Part shown: piece after piece, positions 44,951 to 55,129 of the stretch
How the letters are laid out: every line of letters starts with the position of its first letter
How positions within the stretch are numbered: the first letter of the stretch is position 1
Assembly: GCF_900116205.1 (NCBI RefSeq)
Contig: NZ_FOZS01000001.1
Span: 310,001-374,000 of the forward strand
Reading direction: 5' to 3'
Origin: Halostagnicola kamekurae
Lineage (GTDB): Archaea > Halobacteriota > Halobacteria > Halobacteriales > Natrialbaceae
DNA: 64,000 bases
Notes under the pieces: model-generated
Told to the model about the DNA's origin: nothing
Seen by the model: only the letters and a program-made list of their open reading frames with translations
Database searches by the model: none
Program-made: the position numbers and the translations under genes

Positions 44951-45019
44951 ATGAGCGCGACAGTTATCTCGAGTACGGTAGCGGCTACTCGTCTTCTGAC
45001 ACGGCGGTGGTTTGCGTGA
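44951..45019 (+). CDS. 22-residue upstream ORF coupled to the siroheme reductase
   Basis: ATG at 44951 begins a 22-codon ORF (MSATVISSTV ... RRWFA) that ends in TGA at 45017-45019, overlapping the GTG start of the reductase at 45016 as GTGA. TATA spacing puts its ATG at or near the mRNA 5' end. It could be a leader peptide for translational coupling or control. It has no cysteine and no motif I know. Confidence 0.45.
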   Translation: MSATVISSTVAATRLLTRRWFA

Positions 45020-46716
45020 ACACGACAGAGCAATACAAACAGAACAAACACCCCCTCGACGTCATCGACGACGTCTACGAGTACGCCGAGGACGAACTCA
45101 CCTTCGAGGAGATCGAAGAGCGGGCGGGCGACGGTGAGTGGGAACGGCTGAAGTGGGCCGGCATGTACGCCCAGAAACAGGAGGGGTACTTCATGATCCG
45201 GACGAAGGTCCCCGGCGGCAAGCTCACGCCGGAGCAGGCCGAGGTCATCGGCGAGGTCACCGACGACCTCGCTGTCGCCCCCGAAGAGTACGGTGGCGAA
45301 GAGCAGAACGAACTCTGGGGCGACGCCTACCTCGACATCACGACTCGACAGGACATCCAGAAACACTGGATTCGCGTCGAGGACGTCCCGGAGATGTGGG
45401 ACCGGTACGAAGAGGTTGGCCTGACGACGGTGCAGGGCTGTGGCGACGGCGCTCGAAACGTCCTCGGCTGCCCCGCGGCCGGACTCGACGATCACGAGTG
45501 CTTCAACGCACAGCCGGTCATCGACGCGGTCTCGGACTACTTCACCGGGAACCGCGAGTACGCCAACCTCCCGCGGAAGTTCAAGATGACGATCACCGGC
45601 TGTGCACACGACTGCGCGCAGTCCCAGATCAACGATATCGGACTCGTCCCCGCGAAAAAGGAGATCGACGGCGAGTACCTCTACGGATTCCACGCCCGCG
45701 TCGGCGGCGGTCTCTCCGACGGTCCGCGGATGGGTTCGGAACTCGATGTCTTCATCCAACCCGAAGACGCCGTCGAGTTCTGCCGCGCCGTCGCCCAGAC
45801 GTTCAAGGAGATCGGCGACCGCAACAACCGCGGCGTCTGCCGCATGCGGTATCTCGTCCAACAGCTCGGTCCGGAGAAGTTCGAAGAAGCCATCCGCGAC
45901 CGCTGTACGATCGACCTGTCCGACGCCGGCGAGAACCTGACCGTCGGCTACAAGGGCGACCACGTCGGCGTCCACGACCAGAAACAGGACGGTCTGAAGT
46001 ACGTCGGCTTCAACGTGATCGCCGGCCGCATGGGCGGCGACGAGTTCGCCGAAGCCGCCCGCGCCGCGGAGAAGTACGGCACTGAGGACGCCTCCGTCCG
46101 CCTCGCGACCGACCAGAACTTCCTCATCACGCACATCCCCGAGGAGAACGTCGATGACCTGCTCGCAGAGCCGTTCGCCGCGGACTACCAGCCGGATCCC
46201 GGCCCGTTCTCCCGGGGCGCGGTCGGCTGTACGGGCAACGAGTTCTGTAACTACGCGATCATCGAGACCAAAAAGCGCACCAAGCGCTGGGCTCGAGAAC
46301 TCGACGACCGTATCAATACGCCCGACGACCTCGATGTCGTCCGGATGCACATGTCCGGCTGCTCGGCCTCCTGTGCACAGCCACAGATCGCGGATATCGG
46401 TTTCCGCGGCGAGACCGTCAAACTCGAGGACGACGACTCACCCAACGAAGAAGGCGACAACCTCGTCGAAGGGATGGACTTCGGTCTCGGCGGCTCGCTC
46501 GGCGAGGACAACGAGTTCCTCGACTGGATCGAGCATGCAGTGCCGGCCGACTCGGTGATTCCGGCGCTCGAGCGGCTGTTCGACGCGTACGCCGACGAAA
46601 AGTACGACGACGAGCAGTTCTACGCCTGGTGTCGCCGCGTCGACAACGAGCGGCTGCGCTCGATCATGCAACAGGCCGACGCTCCCGTTGCAGGAGGTGT
46701 TGCCCATGGGGACTGA
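45016..46716 (+). CDS. Siroheme nitrite/sulfite reductase
   Basis: A 566-residue siroheme-[4Fe-4S] reductase of the ferredoxin-type NirA/aSiR family, made of two homologous halves. The catalytic cysteines are C405 and C411 (GCTGNEFC) and C449 and C453 (SGCSASC). The first half has TTRQDIQKHWIR, GCGDGARNVLGC (C142, C152), TGCAHDC (C196, C200) and PAKKE, supplying the basic substrate-binding residues. It reduces nitrite or sulfite by six electrons; sequence alone does not choose. GTG 45016 gives MNTTEQYKQNKHPLDV; GTG 45007 is an alternative. The next gene overlaps it by 11 nt. Confidence 0.9.
   Translation: MNTTEQYKQNKHPLDVIDDVYEYAEDELTFEEIEERAGDGEWERLKWAGMYAQKQEGYFMIRTKVPGGKLTPEQAEVIGEVTDDLAVAPEEYGGEEQNELWGDAYLDITTRQDIQKHWIRVEDVPEMWDRYEEVGLTTVQGCGDGARNVLGCPAAGLDDHECFNAQPVIDAVSDYFTGNREYANLPRKFKMTITGCAHDCAQSQINDIGLVPAKKEIDGEYLYGFHARVGGGLSDGPRMGSELDVFIQPEDAVEFCRAVAQTFKEIGDRNNRGVCRMRYLVQQLGPEKFEEAIRDRCTIDLSDAGENLTVGYKGDHVGVHDQKQDGLKYVGFNVIAGRMGGDEFAEAARAAEKYGTEDASVRLATDQNFLITHIPEENVDDLLAEPFAADYQPDPGPFSRGAVGCTGNEFCNYAIIETKKRTKRWARELDDRINTPDDLDVVRMHMSGCSASCAQPQIADIGFRGETVKLEDDDSPNEEGDNLVEGMDFGLGGSLGEDNEFLDWIEHAVPADSVIPALERLFDAYADEKYDDEQFYAWCRRVDNERLRSIMQQADAPVAGGVAHGD
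46693..46699 (+). promoter_or_regulatory. Strong Shine-Dalgarno fixing the FrhB-like start
   Basis: GGAGGTG ends 6 nt before the ATG at 46706. Strong SDs are rare in this window; it settles the start inside the end of the reductase gene. Confidence 0.7.
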
Positions 46717-48301
46717 TGGCGAGGACGAGCGAACGTTCCCGACCGTTCCCGAATCAAGCGGCGACGACGATGACGACGTTATCGTCCCCGAGACCAGCGG
46801 CCACGCGCCGCGGTCGCGAGCCGATACCGACAACGCCCGAGAGGGTGCGATTCAGCCCGCGAGCGGCGATTCCGACCCCGCTGGTGGAAGCTGCTCGCCA
46901 AACACCTGTACCTGCGGCGAGAAGACGCAGGAAAAGACCGTCGCAACTGACGGAGCGGGCGTCGCGAACGTCGACGAGATGGGCGAACTCGGCGACCTCG
47001 AGTTCACCGAACCCGCGGAGGGGATCAGCCAGGACGTCGACAACGGCGCGCCCGACGAGCGGGTCGGGGTTCCTGACGGCGTCGACCTCGAGACCCCCGA
47101 GTACTCGATCCGGTCGGAGATGAACGACATCGACACGCCGGACGACAAGACCTGGTTCATGGAACTTGACGAAGCCGTCATTGACGACGGCCGCTGTATC
47201 CAGTGTGGGACCTGTGTCGCCGCCTGTCCGTCCGACTCCATCGGAATCGGCGACGACGGCAAGCCAGAACTCGTCAAGATGTGTACCGGCTGTTCGCTCT
47301 GTTGGGACTTCTGCCCGCGCGGCGGACTGCGCTACGAGCGCCAGTGGAAGATCACCGGCGGCGACGACAACGTCAAGGGCGCCGGCGACCCGATCACGGA
47401 GTTCTCCGCGCGGGTCGACGAGGACTGGACGAAAGACGCCCAGGACGGCGGCGTCGTCACGACGGTCCTCTCGCACCTCCTCGAGGCGGGCGAGATCGAC
47501 GGCGCGCTCGTCGCGACCGAAAGCGAGGAGGAACCGTGGAAGGCCGAGAGCTATCTCGCGACCAGTCACGAGGACCTGATCGAGAACGCCGGAACCATCT
47601 ACAACCAGACGATGGCGCTCGGCAACCTGAATCTCGACCAGTGGGAGCACAAGCTCCCCGACAAACCGTTCGACGACATCAGTCTCGCGCTCGTCGGAAC
47701 GCCGTGTGAAATCGAGGGCATCCGCGCCCTACAGGACTTCGAGTGGGACTACCAGGCCCAGAACGAGGGCGTTCGCGCGATCGATTACACGATCGCGTTG
47801 ATGTGTACGAAGAACTTCAACTACTACAGCCTCATGGGCGAGCAGCTAGAGGAGCAGCGAGACATCTCGCTCGACGAGGTCGGCAAAATGGACGTCCTCC
47901 ACGGGAAGCTCATGGTCTACGACAACGACGGAGAGATGATTCTCGACGAGGACATCGAGAACTTCCACGACGCCGCACTCAAAGGCTGTGACGAGTGTGC
48001 GGACTTCACCGGCTTCTGTGCCGACCTCACCGTCGGCTCGGTCGGTTCCTCCGACGAGTACTCGAGTGTCATCGTCCGAACCGAACAGGGTATGAAAGCC
48101 TGGGAGATCACCGAACCCGACCTGGACTACCACGACCTAGAGGACAAGTCCGCGGTCGGCAAACTACAGGGCTGGGACAAGAAGAAGGCCTTCGAAAGTC
48201 TCGAACGGCCGTTCGATCCCGACGCACCTCGGTTCATCGACTACACGGACCACGCGGAGAACTACGGCACCGAGTTGAACCCGCACGACTACGGTCACTA
48301 A
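46706..48301 (+). CDS. FrhB/FpoF-type F420H2 dehydrogenase-like iron-sulfur protein
   Basis: A 531-residue protein. Residues 1-140 are acidic and disordered with a small cysteine cluster at 63-70 (CSPNTCTC). A two-cluster ferredoxin follows: CIQCGTCVAAC (C164, C167, C170, C174) and CTGCSLCWDFC (C193, C196, C199, C203). The rest is the FrhB domain (LVGTPCEIEGIRALQDF; KGCDECADFTGFCADLTVGSVGSSD), the FAD/F420H2-oxidising part of Frh, FpoF and Fsr. It overlaps the siroheme reductase gene by 11 nt with a strong SD, so it is probably that enzyme's electron donor. Confidence 0.87.
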   Translation: MGTDGEDERTFPTVPESSGDDDDDVIVPETSGHAPRSRADTDNAREGAIQPASGDSDPAGGSCSPNTCTCGEKTQEKTVATDGAGVANVDEMGELGDLEFTEPAEGISQDVDNGAPDERVGVPDGVDLETPEYSIRSEMNDIDTPDDKTWFMELDEAVIDDGRCIQCGTCVAACPSDSIGIGDDGKPELVKMCTGCSLCWDFCPRGGLRYERQWKITGGDDNVKGAGDPITEFSARVDEDWTKDAQDGGVVTTVLSHLLEAGEIDGALVATESEEEPWKAESYLATSHEDLIENAGTIYNQTMALGNLNLDQWEHKLPDKPFDDISLALVGTPCEIEGIRALQDFEWDYQAQNEGVRAIDYTIALMCTKNFNYYSLMGEQLEEQRDISLDEVGKMDVLHGKLMVYDNDGEMILDEDIENFHDAALKGCDECADFTGFCADLTVGSVGSSDEYSSVIVRTEQGMKAWEITEPDLDYHDLEDKSAVGKLQGWDKKKAFESLERPFDPDAPRFIDYTDHAENYGTELNPHDYGH

Positions 48302-53189: not shown

Positions 53190-54053
53190 TCACTCGGCCT
53201 CGCCCGTCTCTACCGGCGCGTTGACGAGATTACCCCACTCGGTCCAGGATCCGTCGTAGTTGACGGCGTCCTCGTAGCCGAGCAGTTCGTGCAGTGCGAA
53301 CCAGGCGACGGACGATCGCTCGCCGATTCGGCAGTAGGCGACGGTCGTCTCGTCGCCGTCGATGCCCTTCTCGGCGTACAGTTCCTCGAGTTCCTCCTGG
53401 CTCTTGAACAGGCCGTCGTCGTCGGTGACCGCCGCCCAGGAGATGTTCTGGGCGCCGGGGACGTGGCCGCCGCGCTGGGCCGTCTCCTGGAGTCCTGGCG
53501 GCGCGAGGATGTCCCCGCGGAACTCCTCGGGCGAGCGAACGTCGACGAGCGGAACGCCGCGTTCGATCGCGTTCTCGACGTCTTCGCGGTAGGCGCGAAT
53601 GCTCTCGCGCGGGCCGGCCGCGTCGTACTCGACGGCCGAGAAGTCCGGCTCCTCGTCGGTCGTCGGATAGTCGTTCTCGAGCCAGTACTCGCGGCCGCCG
53701 TCGAGCAGATAGACCTCGTCGTGGCCGTAGTACTTGAACTGCCAGTAGGTGTAGGCGGCGAACCAGTTCGAGTTGTCCCCATAGAGGACGACGGTCGAGT
53801 CCTCGGAGATGCCGTGACTGCCCAGCAGGTCCTCGAAGTCTTCCTTCTCGAGGATGTCCCGTCGCGTCTGGTCCTGGAGCTGAGTCTCCCAGTTGAACCC
53901 GATCGCGCCCGGCGCGTGGGCGTCGTCGTACGCTTCCGTGTCGACGTCGACTTCGACCAGTCGCAGGTCGGAATCGTCGCTTTCGAACTGGTCGAGTCGG
54001 TCCTCGACCCAGTCAGCCGTTACGAGTACGTCGTTGGCGTATTCTGTTGCCAT
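53190..54053 (-). CDS. Thiosulfate sulfurtransferase (tandem rhodanese) 1
   Basis: A 287-residue two-domain rhodanese. First domain: LVEVDVDTEAYDDAHAPGAIGFNWETQLQD; second: LVDVRSPEEFRGDILAPPG, ending in the active loop VAYCRIGERSSVAW with catalytic Cys. The YGDNSNWFAAYTYWQFKYYGHDEVYLLDGG interface is typical. It moves sulfane sulfur from thiosulfate to acceptors. ATG 54053 gives MATEYANDVLVTADWVEDRL. Divergent from the second rhodanese. Confidence 0.93.
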   Translation of the reverse strand: MATEYANDVLVTADWVEDRLDQFESDDSDLRLVEVDVDTEAYDDAHAPGAIGFNWETQLQDQTRRDILEKEDFEDLLGSHGISEDSTVVLYGDNSNWFAAYTYWQFKYYGHDEVYLLDGGREYWLENDYPTTDEEPDFSAVEYDAAGPRESIRAYREDVENAIERGVPLVDVRSPEEFRGDILAPPGLQETAQRGGHVPGAQNISWAAVTDDDGLFKSQEELEELYAEKGIDGDETTVAYCRIGERSSVAWFALHELLGYEDAVNYDGSWTEWGNLVNAPVETGEAE

Positions 54054-54334
54054 ACACGCCCGTAGGGACCTGACCCACATAGTTCCCCTTCTAACCGGAT
54101 AATGCAGTCACCGCTTCATTTTACAGGATGATTTTGCCGGATTAGAGCGCGACGAACGATCGCGTACGGTTGAAACGGCCACATTCGGCGCTTTCAGCCC
54201 CTTACTTAAATCCAGTCGGACAGACGAGGGCTCGCCCGTCCACTGATGCGGATATATTTGCCACAACCTCGGCACCGACGAGAGCGGTGCCGGAACCGGT
54301 GGCCTCTCGAGGCTGCGTCGAGATGGTCTCCTCA
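54054..54334. promoter_or_regulatory. Divergent promoter region between the two rhodaneses
   Basis: About 280 bases. Candidate TATA elements for the right-hand gene are CTTACTTAAATC near 54202 and GATATATTT near 54249; the second would place a start near 54280 and favour the GTG at 54287 over the ATGs downstream. For the left gene the AT-rich stretch around 54110-54140 is a candidate. No inverted repeat stands out. Confidence 0.4.
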
Positions 54335-55129
54335 ATGGACGACGCCTACGTCGTTTCGCCGGAGTGGACCGAAGCACACCTTGAGGATCCGTCCGTTCGA
54401 CTCGTCGACGTGCGAGACGCCTGGGAGTTCGACGCCATCGGACACGTTCCGGGTGCCGTCAACGTTCCGTTCGACAGTTATCGCGACGAGGACAGCGACG
54501 AACCGGGAACGCTCCCCGGCGCGACGGCGTTCGCCGACCTCCTCGAGGCCGCCGGCATCGAACCCGACGACACCATCGTCGTTTACGACGACATGCACGG
54601 CGTGTTCGCCGCCCGGTTCGTGCTGACCGCGCGGGTCTACGGCCACGAGGACGTTCGGCTCTTAGACGGCGACTTCAGCGCGTGGAACCGCGAGCGAGAG
54701 ACGACGAGCGACGAGCGCGAATTCGAGCCCTCGAGCTACGACCCCGAGCCGCTTTCCGCCGAGGAGAGCCCGCTGATCGACCTCGAAGGAGTCGAGGCCG
54801 CGCTCGAGCGCGATGCGATCTTCGTCGACACCCGCGAGCGAGACGAGTACGAGGAGGCTCGCCTGCCCGGCGCGGTTCGCTTCGACTGGCGCGAGGTCGT
54901 CGACGACGAGACGCGCCGACTCAAGCCCGAGGCCGAACTCGAGGAGCTACTCGCCGAGCACGGCATCACGCCCGACCGGGAGATTATCCTCTACTGTAAC
55001 ACGGCGCGGCGGATCAGCCACACCTACGTCGTCCTCCGGGCGCTGGGCTACGAGAACATCGGGTTCTACGAGGGGAGCCTCACCGAGTGGATCGCCGCGG
55101 ACGGCGCGCTCGAGTCCGGCAGCGAGTAG
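54335..55129 (+). CDS. Thiosulfate sulfurtransferase (tandem rhodanese) 2
   Basis: A 264-residue tandem rhodanese. N domain VRLVDVRDAWEFDAIGHVPGAVNVPFD; the interdomain YDDMHGVFAARFVLTARVYGHEDVRLLDGDFSAW; C domain FVDTRERDEYEEARLPGAVRFDW with active loop LYCNTARRISHTYV containing the catalytic Cys. Starts at 54287 (GTG), 54323 (ATG) and 54335 (ATG, MDDAYVVSPEW) are all possible; I use the last. Divergent paralogue of 53190-54053, with different loop residues, suggesting different acceptors. Confidence 0.92.
   Translation: MDDAYVVSPEWTEAHLEDPSVRLVDVRDAWEFDAIGHVPGAVNVPFDSYRDEDSDEPGTLPGATAFADLLEAAGIEPDDTIVVYDDMHGVFAARFVLTARVYGHEDVRLLDGDFSAWNRERETTSDEREFEPSSYDPEPLSAEESPLIDLEGVEAALERDAIFVDTRERDEYEEARLPGAVRFDWREVVDDETRRLKPEAELEELLAEHGITPDREIILYCNTARRISHTYVVLRALGYENIGFYEGSLTEWIAADGALESGSE

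Follow-up and report, generated by a model that had tools for sequence, protein, structure and literature searches.

A pair of overlapping genes in a 64,000-nucleotide stretch of the Halostagnicola kamekurae genome (contig NZ_FOZS01000001.1, positions 310,001 to 374,000, here called the window) probably encodes a cytoplasmic, two-subunit assimilatory sulfite reductase dependent on reduced cofactor F420 (F420H2), the putative enzyme aFsr. Sequence, fold, strict gene pairing and linkage to cof genes give good support to an electron path leading from F420H2 through a flavin adenine dinucleotide (FAD)/iron-sulfur (Fe-S) protein to a siroheme reductase; the physical complex, F420H2 as the donor, sulfite as the substrate and the source of the sulfite are the parts that we infer. 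The pair is an already known prediction, made for haloarchaea by Susanti and Mukhopadhyay in 2012 from Haloterrigena, Halogeometricum, Halorhabdus and Halalkalicoccus (PMC3448663) and still termed putative in PMC9295563, and the present analysis strengthens it. No report of a biochemical test of aFsr was found in the open-licence literature. This analysis contributes the distribution, the strictness of the pairing, the linkage to cof genes, the sulfite-type markers and the sister type fused to a rhodanese; neither that linkage nor the fusion was seen mentioned in the literature searched, which is not proof of novelty.

In the proposed mechanism, the second gene product (aFsr-beta, or beta) would oxidise F420H2 at FAD and send single electrons through three [4Fe-4S] clusters, one beside the FAD and two in its ferredoxin part, while docked on the first gene product (aFsr-alpha, or alpha) at the site that free ferredoxin uses on enzymes of the NirA/SirA type. 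Alpha would receive the electrons via its siroheme-coupled [4Fe-4S] cluster and carry out the six-electron reduction of sulfite to sulfide, feeding cysteine and Fe-S cluster synthesis. NpdG/Fno, encoded in the genome, would regenerate F420H2 from reduced nicotinamide adenine dinucleotide phosphate (NADPH).

Organization and Conservation of the Gene Pair

The alpha gene, read from the sequence alone as that of a siroheme nitrite/sulfite reductase, overlaps the beta gene by 11 nucleotides, with a Shine-Dalgarno sequence for the latter inside its 3' end (Table 1); both this arrangement and the description of beta as a double [4Fe-4S] ferredoxin fused to an FrhB/FpoF domain were confirmed, the second by a Pfam Fer4 dicluster preceding FrhB_FdhB_N and FrhB_FdhB_C (E 2.7e-33). 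Conservation was assessed in a sample of 391 Halobacteria genomes, which are related, so that the counts are not independent, with ortholog cut-offs of at least 72% identity for alpha and at least 70% for beta. The conserved adjacency that the sequence-only reading had asked about is complete: 118 alpha and 118 beta orthologs were found, in about 30% of the genomes, and 118/118 adjoin their partner on the same strand, including one pair that fell outside the automatic adjacency cut-off with an overlap of 83 nucleotides. An overlap of 8 or 11 nucleotides with a Shine-Dalgarno sequence is kept in nearly all of the ∼80 named loci and, together with the adjacency, shows that the pairing is not due to chance.

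The pair is found on plasmid pHME505 of Haloferax mediterranei (E6P09_RS15580/15575), and the same beta is carried by Haloterrigena, Halogeometricum, Halorhabdus and Halalkalicoccus species other than those in PMC3448663. In alpha, beta and the adjacency of their genes, the window pair shows no difference in kind from the aFsr of that paper, which has the same assimilatory aSir/NirA-type alpha and a beta of the Fsr-N/FpoF type, with an FrhB domain and two N-terminal ferredoxin [4Fe-4S] centers. At one locus (L071:9639-11353) alpha is read as two overlapping open reading frames (ORFs), owing either to a sequencing error or to a frameshift. FrhB-like orphans with 69% identity occur at L049:4801-6084 and on Halopiger xanaduensis pHALXA01 (435163-436305, L131), and no reductase neighbor was found for either; the Halopiger copy is absent from the PLSDB gene table. 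Conserved metabolic neighbors of the pair were sought and rejected, the conserved neighbors being mostly ftsY/prefoldin/eIF6-type genes.

Table 1. Features of the aFsr locus and its surroundings (window coordinates)
Feature	Position	Strand	Remark
aFsr-alpha, NirA/SirA-type siroheme-[4Fe-4S] sulfite reductase (predicted)	45016..46716	+	566 amino acids, GTG start, TGA stop
alpha Lys188-Phe-Lys190, substrate pocket (NLPRKFK)	45577..45585	+	Lys190 in sulfite-type enzymes, Asn in nasA-linked nitrite reductases
alpha Cys405-x5-Cys411 ... Cys449-x3-Cys453, siroheme-linked [4Fe-4S] ligands	46228..46374	+	canonical CX5CXnCX3C motif
Shine-Dalgarno sequence GGAGGTG for beta	46693..46699	+	within alpha 3' end; GGAGG/GGTG-type motif in most named loci
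aFsr-beta, two ferredoxin [4Fe-4S] motifs and FrhB/FpoF-type FAD/F420 domain	46706..48301	+	531 amino acids, ATG start, TAA stop
beta Cys63-x4-Cys68-x-Cys70 (CSPNTCTC)	46892..46915	+	in N-terminal extension; type-A specific
beta ferredoxin motifs CxxCxxCxxxCP, Cys164/167/170/174 and Cys193/196/199/203	47195..47317	+	invariant in 80/80 homologs
beta QDGGVVT, residues 246-252	47441..47461	+	conserved FrhB-family stretch, aligns with Fsr and FrhB
beta third [4Fe-4S] site (FAD-side), PC334-x32-C367-x60-C428-x2-C431	47705..47998	+	cf. Fsr
Thiosulfate/mercaptopyruvate sulfurtransferase-like gene (loop CRIGERS)	53190..54080	-	possible sulfite source; near pair in 12 loci only
Second, divergently transcribed rhodanese (loop YCNTARRIS)	54170..55129	+	stand-alone homolog, 55% identity to type-B fused domain

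Alpha Is a NirA/SirA-type Reductase

Alpha contains two NIR_SIR (E 6e-53) and two NIR_SIR_ferr domains and is matched best at the family level by ferredoxin-nitrite reductase/NirA. Tobacco and spinach nitrite reductase (NiR) and Mycobacterium tuberculosis NirA are its best matches both in sequence and in fold, with the top template modelling (TM) score obtained for NirA (PDB code 1zj8, 0.82/0.85), whereas methanogen Fsr and DsrAB match it weakly and over half of its length only. A Pfam search of alpha for a Fer4 domain, as in the inserted ferredoxin domain of Fsr, found none. Alpha is thus of the fused-duplicate assimilatory NirA/SirA type and not of the Dsr-like type found in Fsr. Its siroheme-linked cluster ligands follow the canonical CX5CXnCX3C motif (PMC10229431). 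Three cysteines of the N-terminal half, Cys152, Cys196 and Cys200, are pseudo-symmetric counterparts of ligands 411/449/453 and might, in haloarchaeal NirA-type enzymes, bind a second cluster. They are lost from the nitrite-type paralog of the window genome (L043:8579-10339), and as a hallmark of F420-partnered enzymes they were rejected, being found too in 26/30 stand-alone C1 paralogs (see below).

The sequence-only reading had taken the pair for a split analogue of Fsr, with the same electron path on two chains. As a statement of function and analogy this has good support from the sequence, fold, pairing and cof linkage and from the homology of beta to the N-terminal half of Fsr; as a statement of descent it does not hold, because alpha lies outside the Dsr-like Fsr group in family and fold matches. 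Methanogen Fsr (PDB codes 7np8 and 7npa) shares with the pair the F420H2-oxidase half, with two N-terminal ferredoxin clusters and an FrhB domain containing a third cluster and FAD, but in Groups I and II it is a single polypeptide, where the window has two ORFs, and a ferredoxin domain is inserted into its Dsr-like reductase half, where alpha is a fused duplicate lacking the insert. M. tuberculosis NirA and the SirA type, in turn, use ferredoxin as the donor and have no FrhB partner, unlike the window pair.

A Rhodanese-fused Sister Type

A second, diverged pair (type B, with the window form as type A), likewise adjacent, occurs in at least 30 places and comprises an alpha of ∼800 amino acids with an N-terminal rhodanese and, directly after it, a gene for an FrhB-like partner of ∼415 residues. 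The rhodanese loop YCNTARRLS/Y was read in 27/28 sequences, the searched segment of the 28th having stopped before the loop. Type-B loci include L044:3989-7654, L046, L047 and L051, and the fused gene is named "rhodanese-like domain-containing protein" in RefSeq.

A tree of 101 reductases joins the type-A and type-B alphas as sisters (support 0.999) and separates them from C1 and C2, the haloarchaeal paralogs that stand alone, which is consistent with an FrhB-type partner having been acquired once. That alpha and beta might be co-expressed yet act separately, with alpha fed by ferredoxin, as NirA/SirA enzymes normally are, and beta an F420H2 oxidase serving another acceptor, is hardly credible when neither ortholog is found without the other in 118 genomes and the alphas of types A and B group together to the exclusion of the beta-less paralogs. 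Mutual exclusion of types A and B with the stand-alone sulfite-type C2 was not upheld, the negative association being only modest (17/14/50/11, p 0.012, uncorrected for kinship).

Sulfite or Nitrite as Substrate

At the position of tobacco NiR Asn226 (190 in the window alpha), all type-A and type-B enzymes have Lys, whereas Asn is found in 30/30 readable C1 enzymes and in the nasA-linked enzyme of Halobaculum. Lys is also present in bacterial relatives whose genes adjoin those for CysH, Sat or CysC, and in three family-f11 enzymes from archaea, of which two are encoded close to CysH. Residue 142 is Cys in 51/51 type-A enzymes and Gly in C1, although in type B it is Cys in 17/28 only; the bacterial NirA/SirA members compared share both Lys190 and Cys142. 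The equivalent of Cys142 in M. tuberculosis NirA, a sulfite reductase, forms a Cys-Tyr bond. Haloarchaeal nasA-linked ferredoxin-nitrite reductases belong to the same superfamily as alpha (∼39% identity) but have Asn190 and Gly142, lack an FrhB partner and adjoin nasA. In the loci inspected, whether annotated or ORF-called and with the window among them, no nas gene was found next to the pair.

The only other siroheme reductase of the window genome is of the C1 nitrite type, and for this reason the pair is probably the genome's sulfite reductase. Judged by the two residue markers and this separate paralog, sulfite is favored over nitrite as the substrate of alpha. Siroheme reductases often accept both, and in vitro nitrite is the preferred substrate of MtFsr (PMC10229431), so nitrite reduction is likely as a side activity. 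An enzyme with the same electron path but with nitrite as its physiological substrate, an F420H2-dependent nitrite reductase, would be in line with this preference, with the RefSeq product names and with the growth of Natrinema J7-2, a carrier of two such genes, on nitrite but not on nitrate (PMC3402447). It would also recall FsrII/FNiR of the anaerobic methanotrophic archaea ANME-2c, a siroheme reductase that is F420H2-dependent for nitrite only, but which is single-chained and Dsr-like, unlike the window pair (PMC9295563). The residue markers, the retained nitrite-type paralog, the fusion of the sister clade to rhodanese and the lack of nas neighbors in the loci inspected make it unlikely. 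Of the two substrates named by the sequence-only reading, sulfite is therefore the favored one. The alphas of H. mediterranei pHME505 (L126) and of L130 are labelled "ferredoxin--nitrite reductase" in RefSeq; residues and context favor sulfite and suggest that this label is wrong for the aFsr-alpha clade.

Source of Sulfite

PMC3402447 reports that the haloarchaea known at its time had no classical sulfate-reduction route, and suggests that thiosulfate is converted to sulfite by a sulfurtransferase and then passed to sulfite reductase. In the window, two genes of sulfurtransferase type are found 5-7 kb downstream of the pair (Table 1); as the neighborhood is seen in only 12 loci, it is weak evidence for a sulfurtransferase as the sulfite source of type A, and the type-B rhodanese fusion is the better argument. 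We tentatively suggest that type-B aFsr may be a distinct F420H2-driven thiosulfate-to-sulfide machine, in which the active-loop rhodanese would free sulfite from thiosulfate and pass it to the siroheme site, with type A relying on separate rhodaneses such as the two downstream in the window. CysH (3'-phosphoadenosine 5'-phosphosulfate (PAPS) reductase) was rejected as a phylogenetic partner of the pair, since the Pfam family is too broad and clear CysH-like scores (E < 1e-30) are found in about 10/391 genomes.

Beta and the Link to F420

The closest solved relatives of beta by sequence are the F420H2-oxidase half of Fsr and the F420-reducing carbon monoxide dehydrogenase (CODH) component of Ethanoperedens (8riu), and both, with FrhB, are its best fold matches (TM-scores 0.79-0.82 over FrhB). 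Twelve cysteines, the putative ligands of three [4Fe-4S] clusters, are invariant in 80/80 homologs, and the QDGGVVT stretch is one that we take to be an FAD-site motif. The third cluster site resembles the PCX40CX54CX2C ligand pattern of the FAD-side cluster in Fsr (PMC10229431). The ferredoxin part is argued from sequence motifs because the AlphaFold2 model is poor over residues 1-199 (mean predicted local distance difference test score 61.6). Beta begins with an acidic, poorly predicted extension of ∼150 residues, presumably disordered, in which a C-x(2-6)-C-x-C match is present in most type-A rows and 0/28 type-B rows; this CxxxxCxC-type motif is possibly a metal site.

In 13 loci, some possibly of the same strains, the pair sits among cetZ, cofC, cofG and cofH, an F420 biosynthesis locus, although in one of them (L166) only cofH lay within the stretch read. 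The window genome encodes CofG, CofE and NpdG (F420:NADP oxidoreductase), and beta is its sole FrhB-family protein.

Several points weigh against an F420H2-dependent sulfite reductase. In the window genome the pair lies away from the cof locus, and the 13 linked loci may reflect one inherited arrangement. For the FrhB family, no residue in contact with F420 has been fixed by experiment: a GSVGS loop, assigned by motif similarity to the S209-V210 loop of FrhB, is kept in type A, and the proposed F420-phosphate Lys of a GK turn (position 401, placed likewise) is Lys in 42/52 type-A sequences but mostly other residues in type B. Membership of the FrhB family does not prove F420 use, as plant HCAR, a member of the family and also a fold match to beta, uses the FrhB-like fold without F420 and has ferredoxin as its electron donor. 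Halobacteria genomes seldom encode canonical PAPS reductase as a source of sulfite, and the shared use of nitrite and sulfite by siroheme reductases counts here as well.

HCAR and the variable Lys401 would fit a beta that acts as an adaptor without F420, fed by ferredoxin or another donor, so that alpha-beta would be a sulfite reductase driven by ferredoxin and carrying an additional redox module. The low-potential ferredoxin of haloarchaea, which serves both central metabolism and the assimilation of nitrate (PMC8305020), would fit it too. Such an adaptor is rather improbable, however, since the closest sequence relatives of beta use F420, the cof linkage recurs in 13 loci, and beta-less NirA-type paralogs (type C) are presumably fed by ferredoxin already, which makes a second ferredoxin module hard to explain.

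With F420H2-dependent aFsr as the preferred reading, the pairing suggests that the joining of an FrhB-type electron input to a reductase of NirA type was independent of methanogen Fsr. According to PMC8305020, only one reaction that depends on F420 is on record for halophilic archaea, where the role of F420 is enigmatic, and the pair offers a specific, testable candidate role for the cofactor in these organisms.

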